A stretch of 25,087 nt of DNA from a virus, in IMG/VR virus record IMGVR_UViG_3300028134_000234, positions 1-25,087 of that record, one strand, 5' to 3'. The notes below the pieces were generated by a model. The model saw nothing but the letters and a program-made list of their open reading frames with translations, did not search any database and had not been told where the DNA came from. The position numbers and the translations under genes were made by a program. Of this stretch, positions 3,023-10,006 are shown one piece after another (position 1 is the stretch's first letter; each line of letters starts with the position of its first letter).

Positions 3023-3490
3023 ATGGCAAACATTGACAACGAATGTAAAGATCTAGAAGTAAAAGATTTTTACGACCAATCAACAACACACTTAGCAGAT
3101 ATCATGGAAAACCAAAAGAAGATGCAAGAGCAGACTTATGGTTTTAACTTTGATAATATGACAATCCGAGAAATTATGGATTTCTGGCACTGTAACACAC
3201 ATGCAGTAGTTGACGAAATTCATGAAATGACAGATGCTCTAGGCGGTATTAAAGACGGAAGTGGTAATGCAGTATGGAAATACTGGAAAAAAGACTTCAC
3301 TAAGTATGATAAGTTAAAAATTTCTGACATGTCCGAAGGCGACAAAAAAGAATTGTATATGGAATGGGTAGACATTCTACACTTCTTTATTAATTACGCC
3401 GCTTCAATTGGGCTAGATGCTAAAACAGCATACAACTACTACTTCGCAAAAGCAGAAGAGAATGTTAACCGTCAGAAAAATAACTATTAA
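3023..3490 (+). CDS. 56: dCTP/dUTP pyrophosphatase (T4 gp56-like)
   Basis: This 155-residue all-alpha NTP pyrophosphatase is similar along most of its length to T4 gp56. Shared landmarks are ALGG, NAVWKYWKK (T4 SAVWKPWKK), KISDMS (T4 KIQDLS), WVDILHFFIN (T4 LIDQLHFFMN) and the NVNRQKNNY end (T4 NFARQDRGY). The metal-binding residues of the dimeric dUTPase/MazG-type family appear as E65 and E68 in DEIHE, and E114 and D117 in EWVD. In T4 the enzyme destroys dCTP and dUTP so that only modified cytosine enters phage DNA and dUMP is made for thymidylate. It lies between the glucosyltransferase and the polymerase, and its stop overlaps the polymerase start by 1 base. No cytidylate hydroxymethylase is visible in this window. 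Confidence 0.87.
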   Translation: MANIDNECKDLEVKDFYDQSTTHLADIMENQKKMQEQTYGFNFDNMTIREIMDFWHCNTHAVVDEIHEMTDALGGIKDGSGNAVWKYWKKDFTKYDKLKISDMSEGDKKELYMEWVDILHFFINYAASIGLDAKTAYNYYFAKAEENVNRQKNNY

Positions 3491-4887
3491 TGATATTAGA
3501 TATTGAACAGAGAGACAGGGATGTTATCATCTCTTACTACGACACCGAAGGTAAAGTAGCATTTAAACAATATCCAATTTCACAGTATCAGAACTGGTAT
3601 GTATGTAATGATAATGATAAAGGCAGAAGTCTAGATCATAAAAACTGGGATGGCAGATCAGTCAAACTAGGAAGTGCAAGAAGATATAATAAGTTTTCTT
3701 TAACTTATTTCTTAGATTCATTACCCGCAAAGGATAAAGAAGAAATCTTTGCATACAATATGCCTAAAACATACTTCGTCGATATTGAAACTGAAATCGT
3801 AGATGGCTTTCCAAAAGCTGAAGAAGCTAAAAGTAGAATCCTATCATTTTCCATAATTACACCAGAACATAAAGCTATTGTATTAGGATTGGAAGATATG
3901 GATTCTAAAAGCATCCAAAAAATTGAAGACGATACTAATAAGTATTTCAAAGACTTTGATCAGGATTGGGAATTCAAATATCAGAAATTCGAGTCAGAAT
4001 ATGACATGGTCTATACGTTCTTAATGAAGTTCCTACCTAAGTTTCCAATGATGACAGGCTGGAACTTTATTAATTATGATTGGCAATATATTGTAAACAG
4101 ATGTAAAAGATTACAAATTGATATTGCTGAAGTTTCTATGACACAATCTTTGGATAGAAATGACAGCAGACCCTTACATATTGGAATCTTAGATTACATG
4201 CAATTATATGATAAGTATGATAGAAGTGTAAAGGTAAAAGAATCTAATGCACTTGATTATGTCTCAGGTCAAGTTCTTAATGTTAACAAGATTAAATTTA
4301 CAGGATCTCTACAGGATTTATATAGGGATGATTTTGTAAAATACATTTACTACAATGTAGTCGATTCCGTATTGGTTTATTATATAGATCAAAAGTTGAA
4401 ATCGATGGAAGTTCTTTTAACCTTGGCAAACATCACAAAGATGCCTCTATATAAAGCAGCATCGCCAGTGGCAGTTACAGAATCTCTGATTGCACGAAAA
4501 TTATCAGAAGAAGGTAAACGAATTGGATCTGAAAAGAAGGAAGACAGTGAAAAGAATGCACAATATGCCGGTGCTTATGTAAAAGAACCCATTACTGGAT
4601 ATTATGCAGGTGTAAGTGCATTTGACTTTGCATCACTATATCCTTCTATAATGAGACAATTTAATATTTCACCTGACGCCTTTGTTGAAAAGGTAGCAAA
4701 GCATGAAGTCGCTGAGCGAAGAAAGGATAAAGAAGTAATCGTTTGTGAAAACGGAGTAGTCTATAAACAAGAGACTTCAATGTTAAAGAAAATTCTAGGA
4801 GATTTATATGATCAGCGTAAAGATTATAAACAAACCTCATACGAATATTTCACTAAAGCCGACAGACTTAAAAAAAGATTAAGATAA
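3490..4887 (+). CDS. 43A: DNA polymerase gp43, N-terminal half (split gene)
   Basis: This is a B-family (T4 gp43-like) replicative polymerase that stops after 465 residues. It contains the N-terminal domain, a complete 3'-5' exonuclease and palm motif A. Exo I is D98/E100 in YFVDIETE, Exo II is NFINYD (N192-D197), Exo III is YYNVVD (Y288, D292), and motif A is D379 in DFASLYPSIM. All catalytic residues of proofreading are present. The frame ends inside the first fingers helix (…EYFTKADRLKKRLR), so motifs B and C are missing; they are encoded at 8807-10006. The two halves sum to 864 residues, close to T4 gp43 (898), so little has been lost. Activity must need assembly of both proteins. Split gp43 genes are known in some Aeromonas T4-like phages. 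Confidence 0.93.
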   Translation: MILDIEQRDRDVIISYYDTEGKVAFKQYPISQYQNWYVCNDNDKGRSLDHKNWDGRSVKLGSARRYNKFSLTYFLDSLPAKDKEEIFAYNMPKTYFVDIETEIVDGFPKAEEAKSRILSFSIITPEHKAIVLGLEDMDSKSIQKIEDDTNKYFKDFDQDWEFKYQKFESEYDMVYTFLMKFLPKFPMMTGWNFINYDWQYIVNRCKRLQIDIAEVSMTQSLDRNDSRPLHIGILDYMQLYDKYDRSVKVKESNALDYVSGQVLNVNKIKFTGSLQDLYRDDFVKYIYYNVVDSVLVYYIDQKLKSMEVLLTLANITKMPLYKAASPVAVTESLIARKLSEEGKRIGSEKKEDSEKNAQYAGAYVKEPITGYYAGVSAFDFASLYPSIMRQFNISPDAFVEKVAKHEVAERRKDKEVIVCENGVVYKQETSMLKKILGDLYDQRKDYKQTSYEYFTKADRLKKRLR

Positions 4888-4894
4888 TCTTTTT
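4872..4894 (+). terminator. AT-rich perfect inverted repeat at the polymerase-half stop
   Basis: AAAAAGATTA (4872-4881) is followed by a 3-base spacer and its exact reverse complement TAATCTTTTT (4885-4894). The repeat straddles the stop codon of the first polymerase half and the right arm ends in five T. It could act as a weak terminator, an mRNA 3'-end stabiliser or a scar of the gene break. There is only one G-C pair per arm, so strong termination is doubtful. Confidence 0.4.
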
Positions 4895-4947
4895 GTCTCG
4901 AGAGGCAGTCCATTATTCTACATGAATATATAGACTACTAACGAGAC
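4895..4947 (+). other. Folded RNA element with nested stems
   Basis: Three nested pairings can be drawn: GTCTCG (4895-4900) with CGAGAC (4942-4947), AGTC (4907-4910) with GACT (4933-4936), and TATTC (4914-4918) with GAATA (4924-4928). The right arm of the outer stem overlaps the left arm of the following terminator (4944-4950), so the two structures exclude each other. That is the layout of an antiterminator/terminator switch in front of nrdB. This is inferred from base pairing only; no known riboswitch class is recognised. Confidence 0.35.
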
Positions 4948-4971
4948 CAATCTGTTACCAGTTGGTCTTTT
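4944..4971 (+). terminator. Rho-independent terminator between polymerase half and nrdB
   Basis: AGACCAA (4944-4950) pairs with TTGGTCT (4962-4968). An inner CTG/CAG stem extends it around a TTAC loop with one bulged T, and four T follow (4968-4971). It would separate the 56-43A unit from nrdB-nrdA. Confidence 0.65.
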
Positions 4972-5015
4972 GTAGACTTTAGGAACTAGTTAAAAAATTT
5001 AAGAAAACATAATTT

Positions 5016-6023
5016 ATGAAACCATCAATATTTAAAGAAAGAATAGAATACAAACCGTTTGAATATCCAGTATATTATACTGAAGGATGGTTAAAACAAG
5101 CACAGGCGTTTTGGTTACATACCGAAATTTCAATGCAAGGCGATGTCAAGGATTGGAATGAAACACTTACAGATTCTGAAAAGAATTTAGTTGGAAATAT
5201 TCTTTTGGGGTTTGCACAAACTGAATGTGCAGTTTCAGATTATTGGACAGGGATGGTTACTGATTGGTTTCCTAAATGGGAAATCAAACACATGGCAATG
5301 TTGTTTGGTTCTCAAGAAACTATTCATGCAACCGCTTACTCTTATTTAAATGAAACATTAGGCCTTGAAGATTTTGAAGCATTCTTACATGAACCAACAA
5401 CAGCAGAAAGATTCGATTATTTAATGAATACAGAAGCAGAATATACTCATGAAGACCTTTTGAAAAATCCAACAGCTAGGAAGGATGTTGCTAGATCTTT
5501 AGCAATATTCAGTGCATTTGGAGAAGGAGTTGCATTATACTCTTCATTCGCCGTTCTTTATTCTTTTCAAATGAGAAATAAACTTAAGGGAATCGGACAA
5601 CAAATGAAGTGGTCAGTTAGGGATGAATCTCTTCATTCAAAAATGGGTTGTCAATTATTTAACCACATGTGCGAAGAATATACTGATCTTAGAGATTCAG
5701 TTCAATCTCAAGTAGAAGAAGCAGCTAAGTTAATGGTTGAAATGGAAATGAAGTTTATTGATAAGATGTTTGAAATGGGAGATTTAGAAAATCTTAAGAA
5801 AGAAGATCTTAAAGAATTTATTAAGAAAAGAGCTAATGAAAAATTAGCAGAAATAGGATATCAATCTATCTTTGAATACAATGAAGAAAGTGCTTCAGAA
5901 TTAGATTGGTTCTATCACTTAACAGGTGGACATACACATACGGATTTCTTTGCAGTAAGACCTACTGATTATTCTAAAGCAGGCGAAGATGAAAACTGGG
6001 ATGAAGACGATTTGTTTTCATAA
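5016..6023 (+). CDS. nrdB: Class I ribonucleotide reductase small subunit
   Basis: This 335-residue R2 protein carries the di-metal site and radical tyrosine that drive reduction of ribonucleotides by NrdA. The ligands read E101 and H104 in ETIHATAY with the radical Tyr at Y108, E170 in FGEG, and E204 and H207 in VRDESLH. The first ligand, Asp84 in the E. coli enzyme, is replaced by Glu: E70 in QTEC lies exactly 31 residues before E101, as D84 does before E115 in E. coli. The acidic C-terminal tail (EDDLFS) is the usual type that docks into NrdA. It is shorter than T4 NrdB (388). Gene order is nrdB then nrdA, the reverse of T4, and the block sits inside the split polymerase gene. Confidence 0.94.
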   Translation: MKPSIFKERIEYKPFEYPVYYTEGWLKQAQAFWLHTEISMQGDVKDWNETLTDSEKNLVGNILLGFAQTECAVSDYWTGMVTDWFPKWEIKHMAMLFGSQETIHATAYSYLNETLGLEDFEAFLHEPTTAERFDYLMNTEAEYTHEDLLKNPTARKDVARSLAIFSAFGEGVALYSSFAVLYSFQMRNKLKGIGQQMKWSVRDESLHSKMGCQLFNHMCEEYTDLRDSVQSQVEEAAKLMVEMEMKFIDKMFEMGDLENLKKEDLKEFIKKRANEKLAEIGYQSIFEYNEESASELDWFYHLTGGHTHTDFFAVRPTDYSKAGEDENWDEDDLFS

Positions 6024-6050
6024 CAAATCAATAATTCTAATATAAAATAT

Positions 6051-7901
6051 ATGATGATAAGAAATTACAACGACGCACCAAACCCCGAATACAATGAAAA
6101 GGGAAAAGAAAGAAACTTCGGAGAATCTGAAGGATGGAAATTAGGAGTAGACTTCCCAGTATGGGCTAATACTGAAGTTTATGTAAAAACTGTTTCTAAG
6201 GGATATTTACTAGAAGGAGAAACTCCAAAGGATGCATACTGGAGAGTATCGACAACAGTTGCACAAAGATTAAGAAAGCCAGAATTAGCAAGTAAATTCT
6301 TTGATTATATGTGGAAAGGATGGTTAAATCTTGCAACTCCAGTTTTTTCAAACACGGGTTCAGAAAGAGGTCTTCCAATTTCATGTTTCGGTATAGATGT
6401 AGCAGATTCAATTCACGATATAGGTTCAAAGAATTTAGAATTAATGTTACTTGCTAAACATGGAGGCGGTGTTGGTATCGGAGTAAATCAGATAAGACCG
6501 GCAGGAGCAACCATTACAGGAAACGGAACTTCAGACGGAGTAGTTCCATTTATAAAAATTTATGATTCTACTATTTTAGCAACTAATCAAGGTTCAGTAA
6601 GAAGAGGTGCAGCGTCAGTCAATATAGATATAGAACATGATGATTTTTGGGAATGGTTAGAGGTTAGAGAACCTAAGGGTGATGTAAATAGACAATGTTT
6701 AAACGTACATCAATGTATCGTAGTATCTGACGGGTTTATGCAAAAGATCGAGGCTGGAGATAAAGAAGCTCGTAAAAGATGGGCCGCTGTGATTAGAAAA
6801 AGAAGAGCAACAGGAGAACCTTATATAATGTTTAAGGGTAATATCAATAGAATGAATCCGGATGCGTATAAGCAAAATGGTTTAAAGGTTTATATGACTA
6901 ACATCTGTTCTGAGATTACTTTACACACCGATGAAAATCATTCATTTGTATGTTGTTTATCTTCTGTGAATCTTAAAAGATATGAAGAATGGAAAGATAC
7001 TGATTTAATCTATACTGCAACTTACTTTTTAGATGGAGTTCTTCAGGAGTTTATTCATAGAGCGAAATATATGAGAGGCTTTGAAAATGCAGTAAGATCC
7101 GCTGAAAAGGGTAGAGCATTAGGTTTAGGAGTTCTCGGATGGCATACTTATTTACAAGATAGAAATATTCCATTCGATTCTTTGACAGCTCAATTTGAAA
7201 CTAGAAAGATATTTTCTCAAATCAAAGTAGAAAGTGAAAGAGCAAGTAGAGATTTAGCTACAGAATTTGGAGAACCTCTTTGGTGTGTAGGAACTGGAAT
7301 GAGAAACACACACTTAAGAGCAATTGCTCCTACTGTTTCTAATTCTAAATTAGCAGGAAATGTTTCACCAGGCATTGAACCATGGGCAGCAAATGTATTT
7401 ACTGAACAAACTGCAAAAGGAACTTTTATTAGAAAGAACCCTGCACTTGAAAATATGTTAACTAAGATCAAGCAAAATAAGAAAACAGTATGGGACAAAA
7501 TACTAGAAGACGGTGGTTCAGTTCAAGGCGTTGATGTATTAGGAGAATATTGGGTAAAGGAAGGAAGTAGTGATGCCCCGATTAAGCAAGCCACTTATGA
7601 CAAATTAACAGATCACGAAAAGGATCTTTATATTTCTGTTAAAGATGTATTTAGAACCTTTAAAGAAATTAATCAAATGGAATTAGTTAAACAAGCTGGT
7701 GTAAGACAACAATATATTGATCAAGCAGTTTCATTAAATTTAGCTTTTCCTACACAGGCTGAACCTAAATATATTAATCAAGTTCATTTAGAAGCTTATA
7801 AGCAGGGAATAAAAACTCTTTATTATATGAGAACAGAATCTGTATTAAGAGGAGACATCGCACAGCGAGCAATGGAAGATTGTTTAGCATGTGATGGATA
7901 A
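6051..7901 (+). CDS. nrdA: Class I ribonucleotide reductase large subunit
   Basis: This is the catalytic subunit, which makes deoxynucleotides for phage DNA. Visible catalytic residues are the redox pair C112 (SCFG) and C302 (CCLSSVNL), the active-site N284, C286 and E288 in NICSEI, the radical-relay tyrosines Y591 and Y592 (TLYYMRT), and the C-terminal shuttle cysteines C611 and C614 (DCLACDG). At 616 residues it is short compared with T4 NrdA (754). The frame goes almost directly into the catalytic domain, so an N-terminal ATP-cone is absent and the usual dATP shut-off is probably missing. No frameshift or inserted endonuclease is seen. It follows nrdB by 27 bases, and a T-tract terminator follows it. 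Confidence 0.95.
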   Translation: MMIRNYNDAPNPEYNEKGKERNFGESEGWKLGVDFPVWANTEVYVKTVSKGYLLEGETPKDAYWRVSTTVAQRLRKPELASKFFDYMWKGWLNLATPVFSNTGSERGLPISCFGIDVADSIHDIGSKNLELMLLAKHGGGVGIGVNQIRPAGATITGNGTSDGVVPFIKIYDSTILATNQGSVRRGAASVNIDIEHDDFWEWLEVREPKGDVNRQCLNVHQCIVVSDGFMQKIEAGDKEARKRWAAVIRKRRATGEPYIMFKGNINRMNPDAYKQNGLKVYMTNICSEITLHTDENHSFVCCLSSVNLKRYEEWKDTDLIYTATYFLDGVLQEFIHRAKYMRGFENAVRSAEKGRALGLGVLGWHTYLQDRNIPFDSLTAQFETRKIFSQIKVESERASRDLATEFGEPLWCVGTGMRNTHLRAIAPTVSNSKLAGNVSPGIEPWAANVFTEQTAKGTFIRKNPALENMLTKIKQNKKTVWDKILEDGGSVQGVDVLGEYWVKEGSSDAPIKQATYDKLTDHEKDLYISVKDVFRTFKEINQMELVKQAGVRQQYIDQAVSLNLAFPTQAEPKYINQVHLEAYKQGIKTLYYMRTESVLRGDIAQRAMEDCLACDG

Positions 7902-7909
7902 GATTAGTT

Positions 7910-7948
7910 GTGGTTAAGTCCACTTCTTAGGACCGAGATAGTTCTCGG
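7910..7948 (+). other. Two short tandem hairpins after nrdA
   Basis: GTGG (7910-7913) pairs with CCAC (7920-7923), and CCGAGA (7933-7938) pairs with TCTCGG (7943-7948) around a TAGT loop. They sit immediately before the strong terminator hairpin at 7952. Together the three stems could be the end of a small RNA or a stabilised nrdA mRNA 3' end. No tRNA cloverleaf can be drawn. Confidence 0.35.
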
Positions 7949-7951
7949 ATC

Positions 7952-7990
7952 GAGGCCAGGAGTTCGCTACTTCCTGGCCTCACTTTTTTT
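7952..7990 (+). terminator. Strong rho-independent terminator after nrdA
   Basis: GAGGCCAGGA (7952-7961) pairs perfectly with TCCTGGCCTC (7972-7981), followed by AC and seven T. It is one of the most GC-rich hairpins in the window and insulates the RNR genes from the clamp gene. Confidence 0.85.
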
Positions 7991-8014
7991 ACTGAAACTA
8001 TTTGTGATTTTTGT

Positions 8015-8026
8015 GTAGAATAATAA
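8015..8026 (+). promoter_or_regulatory. Candidate promoter element before the clamp gene
   Basis: GTAGAATAATAA is identical to the 12-mer at 2987-2998 and lies 21 bases before the clamp ATG, directly downstream of a terminator, where a new promoter is expected. No clear -35 box is visible. Confidence 0.4.
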
Positions 8027-8047
8027 ACAAATAAAAATTATACATTC

Positions 8048-8803
8048 ATGAAAATTTCAATCAGTAAGGTCGATTCAAACAACTTCATCGGCTTCGTTAA
8101 TAGACTTAAAGTAATTGATTCTTTTGTCTATTTTAAATTAAAAGATGGTGTCGTACAGGCATCCGCTTATTTACCACAAAGAGATGCTGTTAAGCATCAC
8201 AGAATGCCGATTTCTCAAGTTTTTCAAATCGAAGATGGTGAAATCTCTACAGACAAAGAATTAAAGATTGCATTCTTTGACGCTTCTAAAATAACAGATG
8301 CATTCAAACAATTTGACTATGATGCTATTTCAGCTGAAATCGAATTCGTTGAAAACGAAGAAGATTGTGTTGCAACTACATTCAAAATATTTAATGATGA
8401 ATTAGAAATTACACTTGCATGTTCAGAGCCATCTTTAGGTTATAAAGATCTAACTGATGCACAGATTCAAGGTATCTTTAACACCGAAGCTTCTACTTTT
8501 AAATTCGATTTAGATTACACTTCACTTGCAAAGGTAAGAAACCTATTCTCTTTAGATAAAGAAGAAACGTTCTCAATAAATGCAAACGGAAATGGTGTAA
8601 AGCTTTTAGGAAAAACCTACAACATGTTAGTAACACCAGATTATGACGGTGAATCAGGAACTAACGTTACATTATTCAAAAAATATCTTAACCTTTTAGA
8701 TAAAGAAGATTACACTGCCCATGTATTAGACAATAGAGTAGTTCTTAGATCTAATGATTCAGAAACTTTGCTAACGATTGCAACTTGCCAAACAGCAGAG
8801 TAA
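8048..8803 (+). CDS. 45: DNA polymerase sliding clamp (gp45-like)
   Basis: This 251-residue protein is a little longer than T4 gp45 (228), which forms a trimeric ring that tethers gp43 to DNA and activates late transcription with gp33 and gp55. The fold pattern fits a clamp: two similar beta-rich halves, with a second-half strand pattern around TPDYDGESGTNVTLF that resembles the T4 TLGDYDGENTFNFIINM segment. Position is strong support, since it is followed 3 bases later by the C-terminal polymerase half in the same frame. Its own terminator-promoter boundary lies upstream. Sequence identity to T4 is low, so the call rests on pattern plus context. The clamp-loader genes 44 and 62 are not in the window. 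Confidence 0.8.
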   Translation: MKISISKVDSNNFIGFVNRLKVIDSFVYFKLKDGVVQASAYLPQRDAVKHHRMPISQVFQIEDGEISTDKELKIAFFDASKITDAFKQFDYDAISAEIEFVENEEDCVATTFKIFNDELEITLACSEPSLGYKDLTDAQIQGIFNTEASTFKFDLDYTSLAKVRNLFSLDKEETFSINANGNGVKLLGKTYNMLVTPDYDGESGTNVTLFKKYLNLLDKEDYTAHVLDNRVVLRSNDSETLLTIATCQTAE

Positions 8804-8806
8804 TTT

Positions 8807-10006
8807 ATGGATATAAACACACTAATTAACAAGCCCGAAGACGACCTTACACGGGATGAAATGCAAACCTTGGCGGATCACTATCAAACAATGTCCGCCA
8901 AGTTTACTGCATACGAACAGGCCGTTAAAGTAACTCTTAACTCGATCTATGGTGCATTTGGTAATAAGTGGTTTCACTTTTTTAATATAGACATTGCAGA
9001 ATCTATTACACTACAAGGACAGAATGCAATTCTATATTCTGAAAAGATTCTTAATAAATATTTTCAAGAGTTTTGGCCTAAAGATACTGTGGTCCATGAA
9101 CATTTCAATATTTCTATTAAGAATAAATTAGTAAGACCTTCCGTGGTTTATATTGATACAGATTCATGTTACGTTCAGTTTGAAGAAATGTATGAATCTA
9201 TTGAATGGCTAGGAGATAATAAACTACCAATTGATAAGTTTATTATGGAATTATATACGTTCAGAATCAAAGACTATATCACGAAATGTATGGCAAAGTA
9301 TGCCGAAGTTACGAACACAGACAACTTTTTATATTTCGATTTAGAAACAATTGCATATTCAGGAATATGGTTAGCTAAAAAGAAATATTTACAAGACATT
9401 GCATGGGAAGATAAGCTCGAAGTAGACGATAGATACCCTTCTCTTAAGAAGATTAAGACGATTGGATTTGATACTATTCAATCTTCTACTCCTACATTAG
9501 CAAGAAAGCATTTGACTGAAGCTCTTAAATTGATTTTATCTGAAAAGCCAACTGCAGAGATGTTAAGTAGATTAGTTTCTTTTTTGAAAACGGCAAAGAA
9601 AGAGTTTAAGATGTCTAATGTTGATGAAATAGCTTTCAATAAAAGAACTAATAATATTGAAAAATACATTGTAGATGATACGATAGAATTTCAATATGGT
9701 TTAAAATGTCCTCCGAACGTCAAGGCAGCAGGATTCTATAACTTCTTAATGAATCAGAATCCAAAATATAAAAACAAGTATAAAATGATTGGTAATGGCG
9801 AAAAGCTAAAATTATATCATTGTAAACATAATGTATGTGAAATGTATGCATATCAACCAGGTGCCCATCCTTATGAAATTGCACCACAGGTAGATTATGA
9901 AACACAATTTGAAAAATCTGTAATAGATCCTATCAATAGAGTATTATCTTCAGTAGGTCTTCAGAGACTAAACAGAAATCTAATATATTCATCTTCATTA
10001 TTCTAA
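8807..10006 (+). CDS. 43B: DNA polymerase gp43, C-terminal half (split gene)
   Basis: This 399-residue protein holds the rest of the B-family polymerase: the second fingers helix with motif B (K41…NSIYG, N45-G49), motif C in YIDTDS (D117, D119), a palm segment with AKKKY and the QSSTP element, and the thumb. It starts with about 35 residues (MDINTLINKPEDDLTRDEMQ…) that correspond to the fingers helix leading into motif B, so the break falls at the fingers tip between the two long helices. The ATG lies 3 bases after the clamp stop and in the same frame, so a readthrough would fuse clamp to polymerase. The C-terminus (YSSSLF) is the probable clamp-binding tail, as with the T4 gp43 end. Motif residues are all intact. 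Confidence 0.93.
   Translation: MDINTLINKPEDDLTRDEMQTLADHYQTMSAKFTAYEQAVKVTLNSIYGAFGNKWFHFFNIDIAESITLQGQNAILYSEKILNKYFQEFWPKDTVVHEHFNISIKNKLVRPSVVYIDTDSCYVQFEEMYESIEWLGDNKLPIDKFIMELYTFRIKDYITKCMAKYAEVTNTDNFLYFDLETIAYSGIWLAKKKYLQDIAWEDKLEVDDRYPSLKKIKTIGFDTIQSSTPTLARKHLTEALKLILSEKPTAEMLSRLVSFLKTAKKEFKMSNVDEIAFNKRTNNIEKYIVDDTIEFQYGLKCPPNVKAAGFYNFLMNQNPKYKNKYKMIGNGEKLKLYHCKHNVCEMYAYQPGAHPYEIAPQVDYETQFEKSVIDPINRVLSSVGLQRLNRNLIYSSSLF

Follow-up and report, generated by a model that had tools for sequence, protein, structure and literature searches.

Replicative family B DNA polymerases are normally single chains. In the 25,087-base virus record analysed here (the window), from a marine phage, the counterpart of a T4-type gene 43 is not one polypeptide: it is spread over two plus-strand frames 3.9 kb apart, polN and polC (Table 1). 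The first-pass annotation had described two separate genes at about this distance with 864 residues in total, and this stands: 3,919 nt separate the frames, and 465 and 399 residues add up to 864. Against the polymerase profile PF00136, polN matches positions 22-137 and polC matches from 149 onward, and polN also carries the exonuclease domain PF03104. PHROGs holds one family per half (phrog_2062, 502 positions, and phrog_1918, 382 positions), and each half matches the full-length family phrog_262 as well. The exonuclease domain, motifs A, B and C and the catalytic residues are all present, distributed over two genes: polN and polC complement each other as parts of a single T4-type family B polymerase.

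Table 1. Features of the split polymerase locus, in window coordinates
Feature	Position	Strand	Remarks
MazG-like pyrophosphohydrolase gene	3023-3490	+	phrog_173, E 1.4e-13; stop codon overlaps polN start
polN, N-terminal half of family B DNA polymerase	3490-4887	+	465 aa; holds exonuclease domain, motif A and the first helix of the fingers
nrdB, ribonucleotide reductase small subunit	5016-6023	+	in exchanged cassette
nrdA, ribonucleotide reductase large subunit	6051-7901	+	in exchanged cassette
Intrinsic-terminator-like hairpin	7952-7981	+	11 pairs, then T-run; between nrdA and the clamp-like gene
Probable sliding clamp gene (gene 45-like, g45)	8048-8803	+	251 aa; wide profile; constant polC neighbour in close relatives
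polC, C-terminal half of same polymerase	8807-10006	+	399 aa; holds the second helix of the fingers, motifs B and C and the thumb

The genes between the halves had been named nrdB, nrdA and gene 45. The two ribonucleotide reductase (RNR) genes can be assigned firmly. For the third, direct Pfam, PHROG and PDB searches gave no support, and an 11-row profile compared with clamps by hhalign was not significant; a 37-row profile compared in the same way with three T4-type clamps gave an E value of 0.00027 (probability 42%, 148 columns), which supports a gene 45 sliding clamp but falls short of proof. No homing endonuclease gene was seen in 4888-8806.

Integrity of the junction and selection on both halves

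As the window is a 25-kb metagenome fragment, the arrangement might be an assembly artefact in which two pieces of an ordinary polymerase gene were wrongly joined on either side of an unrelated block. The junction (4800-8900) lies, however, within one nucleotide alignment in 16 of 80 IMG/VR loci, nine of them at 99.97% identity or above and from nine metagenome ids, and the same split is found in the isolate genomes of phages PAU, MA9V-2 and PTm5. We therefore regard an assembly error as excluded, its residual probability being negligible. Of the 80 loci, 55 extend as far as polC, and every one of them has the genes lined up on a single strand as polN-nrdB-nrdA-g45-polC; in the remaining 25 the sequence stops short of polC.

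Judged by comparison with four relatives, both halves are under purifying selection, with dN/dS of 0.018-0.074 for polN and 0.033-0.067 for polC (one saturated polC value omitted), several dS values exceeding 1. A full-length polymerase gene elsewhere in the genome was also sought: across 19 contigs with lengths of 79-236 kb (none known to be complete), PF00136 matched nothing but the two halves in every case. Seven of these contigs are at least 99.97% identical to the window's region, the longest measuring 177 kb.

Could the halves nevertheless be relics, or have taken on new separate roles such as that of a stand-alone exonuclease, with another polymerase copying the genome? The phage is known from a partial genome, and a split Pol III alpha-like protein exists beside PolB in some jumbo phages, as the available text of PMC7824862 describes. 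But the low dN/dS of both genes, the retention of both in every locus that reaches polC, the invariance of the catalytic residues in either half (see below) and the lack of another PF00136 gene in the 19 contigs make this reading unlikely.

Break position and a predicted composite active site

The structure model of polN (pLDDT 85.2, pTM 0.79) aligns over residues 1-465 with RB69 gp43 4-504 (Z 29.8, rmsd 3.4, 420 residues). That of polC (pLDDT 74.0, pTM 0.53) has a poor core; its best row pairs residues 1-389 with RB69 gp43 516-892 (Z 16.5, rmsd 12.1, 329 residues), and other structural rows cover about 514 to 897, several with odd chain ranges because the domains are poorly placed in this model. 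In these models the RB69 gp43 fold is matched, by polC at the domain level only. We took the junction from these structural alignments because some ends were scattered when fragments were aligned to a T4-like reference. The break falls between the ranges matched by polN and polC, at the tip of the fingers, as had been read from the sequence at first. In the models, a single long helix (431-464) closes polN and another helix spans polC 16-48, so that the missing piece is the loop at the fingers tip.

The first-pass annotation had also held that all catalytic residues are kept, and the alignments bear this out. By phmmer, polN D379, R443 and K447 correspond to RB69 D411, R482 and K486, and polC K41, N45 and Y48 to RB69 K560, N564 and Y567; polC D117 and D119 we take to be the motif C aspartates, RB69 D621 and D623. 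The three polN residues are invariant in 40 rows, the five polC residues in 37.

We propose that polN and polC are translated from separate genes and then assemble without a covalent bond. Their interface would lie in the palm and follow a pair of antiparallel fingers helices to which each chain contributes one. The active site would be a composite, in which polN supplies the aspartate of motif A and the Arg/Lys pair of the fingers, and polC supplies motif B and the motif C aspartates. Model confidence falls below 50 at polN 351-383 and, small gaps apart, at polC 37-68, 117-119 and 172-222. These low-confidence palm faces, which would meet in the assembled enzyme, fit two mutually dependent chains; given the poor core of the polC model, the low confidence there may reflect a limit of the modelling.

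Neighbouring genes and spread of the split across phages

Four scans of IMG/VR with polN profiles gave at least 289 loci, some contigs being present twice, which form 134 clusters at 95% polN identity among the matches listed. Again among the matches listed, polC lies downstream on the same strand in 62 of the 134 clusters (808-9,254 nt, median about 4.4 kb), both halves share a single frame in one (L143), and polC is absent from the fetched flank in 71, 50 of which have more than 6 kb of downstream sequence. The single frame of L143 is 949 aa long and contains both halves; a search with it returned only L143 itself and one relative, which matches over its N half.

All 62 clusters with polC in the flank have the clamp-like gene between the halves; the intervening genes are nrdB-nrdA-g45 in 56 clusters, nrdA-g45 in two and g45 only in four, among the matches listed. 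The gap between the g45 and polC matches has a median of 7 nt in clusters with both, likewise among the matches listed, and PAU, MA9V-2, PTm5 and LR756500 also carry the clamp-like gene between the halves. The RNR genes behave differently. There are three nrdB types (in 40, 12 and 4 clusters), the nrdB distance reaches 0.70 among pairs whose polN distance is below 0.1, and polN and nrdB distances correlate at 0.349 (1,176 pairs). By these measures nrdBA is an exchanged passenger between co-inherited halves, a cassette that has moved between lineages. The view that an RNR-clamp block splits the gene thus holds for the clamp-like gene, present in all 62 clusters and in the genomes of PAU, MA9V-2 and PTm5, and does not hold for nrdBA, which is exchanged and is missing in 4 of 62.

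The strong hairpin between nrdA and g45 recurs in relatives: under a strict test, terminator-like hairpins occur in 21 of 49 nrdA-g45 gaps (40-1,200 nt long) and are absent from 28, against 1 of 54 polN-nrdB, 0 of 51 nrdB-nrdA, 0 of 58 polC-uvsX and 0 of 2 polN-g45 gaps. The number expected from resampled sequence is 0.0, the control being a first-order Markov resample (20 per gap) rather than an exact shuffle. The 21 include stems whose bases differ yet still pair (GAGGCC/GGCCTC, GAAGCC/GGCTTC). A lax scan of the window gave six terminator-like sites against 3.1 expected, a weak excess, and a sigma-70 scan of the window showed no enrichment (35 sites against 39.9 expected). The recurrent hairpin suggests that polN and polC probably belong to separate transcription units, with read-through possible. 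A Shine-Dalgarno-like motif is missing at 25 of 26 chosen start sites, and this near-absence fits a Bacteroidota-type host.

How far does the split extend? A search of related genomes for the junction had been suggested at the outset, and the split recurs across a clade that includes PAU, MA9V-2, PTm5, Lak and phages of 460-735 kb. Twelve named phage records were searched whole; the polymerase is split in 11, none of which contains a frame with both halves, and MaF61 has it in one frame. In PAU, MA9V-2, PTm5 and LR756500, polC follows polN on the same strand after 2 to 10 kb; in Lak-B2 it lies upstream of polN. LR756502, LR745206, LR756504, LR756501, Lak-A1 and Lak-C1 have their halves on opposite strands, about 100-620 kb apart in record coordinates. 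Among large IMG/VR contigs of the distant group, 34 were picked by size, and polC matched in 12: L143 itself, four contigs with polC within about 13 kb downstream, and seven in which it is about 80-150 kb from polN, on the opposite strand in six. In one of these seven (L334), the polC frame starts only at motif B and may be broken. The remaining 22 of the 34 gave no polC match and are perhaps fragments. Altogether, 13 records have distant halves, about 80-620 kb apart and on opposite strands in 12; the distances would shift in circular or permuted genomes, the strands would not. A plasmid search with polC gave no match.

This distribution bears on the idea that a single chain is rebuilt from the halves, by trans-splicing, an intron or a split intein. 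Other members of the gene family do show protein splicing, though elsewhere in the gene: scans found N- and C-terminal intein regions in the polC pieces of LR756500 and Lak-B2 and an N-terminal region in PTm5 polC, whose record itself names an intein-containing split precursor, and polC is broken again at motif C in LR756500, PTm5, Lak-A1, B2 and C1 and one IMG/VR contig. With these intein-bearing relatives as positive controls, however, no intein region was found in the window's polN or polC; the whole window has no Rfam match at gathering, and 4800-8900 has no match to the described intron types at E up to 10. Moreover, of the 13 records with distant halves, 12 carry them on opposite strands, which argues against one spliced mRNA. 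A joined chain is thus quite improbable, and the question raised at first, whether the halves are spliced, joined or simply assemble, leans clearly towards assembly.

The distribution also invites a reading of the evolution of the split. In a quick polN tree (42 rows, IQ-TREE, SH-aLRT only), 34 rows of this clade separate from the T4-like and cyanophage rows with support 99, and the 43A rows of Aeromonas and Acinetobacter phages fall inside the T4 group, which indicates that gene 43 was split more than once, independently. L143 groups with the split LR756504 and L138 (support 94), suggesting that its single frame arose by re-fusion of the halves. The fewest split-state changes on the tree number five, or four without MaF61, a count that gives no direction. 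The unsplit MaF61 forms a long branch, and its placement is unsure. The correlation of distances is 0.963 between polN and polC (1,431 pairs) and 0.960 between polN and uvsX, so that the agreement between the halves, being no higher, speaks for common descent and not for contact. These comparisons are best read as a split of long standing within this clade of large T4-like phages.

A probable two-chain replicase among known split polymerases

Taken together, the retained residues, the purifying selection, the absence of a full-length PolB from the contigs and split records searched and the unlinked halves in relatives support well the two-chain enzyme that the first-pass annotation had thought likely. 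Very probably, polN and polC are subunits of one T4-type family B replicase, assembled non-covalently from the products of separate genes; its assembly, activity and role as the main replicase are what we infer. Such a replicase would be old and obligately two-chained. With clearly less confidence, we would like to speculate further that the clade has long relied on an obligate two-subunit replicase whose halves are movable, independent genes, and that formation of the replisome may work as an AND-gate over two transcription units. The idea comes from the position of polN in a nucleotide-supply unit (MazG-like, RNR) and of polC next to the clamp gene, the two being separated by a recurrent terminator; we hold it possible but rather doubtful.

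In the published gene 43 splits of phages considered here the halves are close together, whereas in this case they behave like subunits and can lie on opposite strands across a large clade. How split polymerases assemble is a long-open question, and nature offers forms in which it can be tested: the heterodimeric form, the form with a nested split intein and the single-frame L143. A practical caution also follows: in huge phages, one half on its own may be labelled 'DNA polymerase', whichever of the two it is.

Finally, we place the locus among other split polymerases. That gene 43 can be split is already known from Aeromonas phage 25, Acinetobacter phage Konradin and Pseudomonas phage MIJ3. 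The available sections of PMC2988022 review the split gene 43 of Aeromonas phages, report that 43A and 43B of phage 25 co-purify with polymerase activity, and describe an untranslated spacer between the halves in 44RR. Elsewhere, in the portions available, the PolB of group 2 jumbo phages is treated as classic and a different, split Pol III alpha is described (PMC7824862), DNA polymerase genes of Jug phages are said to be often split by endonucleases (PMC12363816), split DNA polymerases are mentioned, their family not being given, in OM43 phages (PMC10580990), and two polymerase ORFs are listed without remark for MA9V-1 (PMC10537231). Term searches of the available text of PMC7162821, PMC8346664, PMC9123017 and PMC12607003 returned no mention of a split polymerase, nor did that of PMC12619734, which names two VOGs DNA polymerase beside DNA polymerase I. 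No published account of unlinked PolB halves was found in our searches of the open-licence literature, within which the clade-wide extent of the split and the unlinked halves are apparently new.

A known parallel in the position of the break is Aeromonas phage 25, where a family B gene 43 is likewise divided into two genes between motifs A and B; its 43A stops near residue 512 of a T4-like reference, which lies in the same region of the fingers, so the comparison with Aeromonas phages drawn at the outset was apt. The contents of the gap differ: phage 25 has a homing endonuclease between the halves and an intron in 43B, the window nrdB, nrdA and the clamp-like gene. The halves of phage 25 and 44RR stay adjacent and belong to the T4 group, so the split in the window is an independent event. 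Konradin gp43A and gp43B, annotated as 'split DNA polymerase', are also two genes on one strand, but about 2 kb and six hypothetical genes separate them, and they again fall in the T4 group. The Pseudomonas jumbo phage MIJ3 has a split family B polymerase too, there associated with an intein according to the available part of PMC6892783. The nearest kin remain PAU, MA9V-2, PTm5, Lak and the LR7565xx huge phages, which share the clade and the kind of split with the window and differ from it in having other genes between the halves or distant halves on opposite strands, and, in LR756500, PTm5 and Lak, an intein in polC.

Exchange of the ribonucleotide reductase genes

The ribonucleotide reductase genes nrdB and nrdA (nrdBA), which lie between the polymerase halves polN and polC in the window, have been exchanged and occur as at least three sequence types, whereas the genes flanking them share one common history.

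Polymerase gene forms among relatives

One relative encodes both polymerase halves in a single natural frame of 949 aa; this unsplit relative (L143) groups with LR756504, whose polymerase is split. In L370, a family B polymerase frame stays whole through the fingers; its interruption falls after motif B and before motif C, and so not where polN and polC part. Several relatives carry a second break in polC, at motif C, with a split intein, leaving the polymerase gene in three pieces; the intein regions were confirmed in the polC pieces of LR756500, PTm5 and Lak-B2, and the motif-C breaks of the remaining relatives were judged by eye.

Locations of the features discussed
Feature	Location
nrdBA	window 5016-7901
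Single-frame polymerase	L143:10001-12850
Polymerase interrupted between motifs B and C	L370:3911-8405
polC with second break, motif C	L008:29721-33121
polC with second break, motif C	L007:15549-16313
polC with second break, motif C	L013:7316-11080
polC with second break, motif C	L336/L339
polC with second break, motif C	L022/L032
polC with second break, motif C	L023/L034
ORFs with MKHIKLFEQFVNE-like starts	window 16970 and 23196

Translation starts and N-termini

Because 25 of the 26 start sites chosen in the window lack a Shine-Dalgarno-like motif, the phage would fit a Bacteroidota-type host. Many proteins encoded between nrdA and the clamp-like gene g45 in relatives begin with MKHIKLFEQFVNE-like N-termini, and two window ORFs start similarly. 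In T4, capsid-targeting propeptides are cleaved by the head protease; the MKHIKLFEQFVNE-like N-termini seem reminiscent of these.
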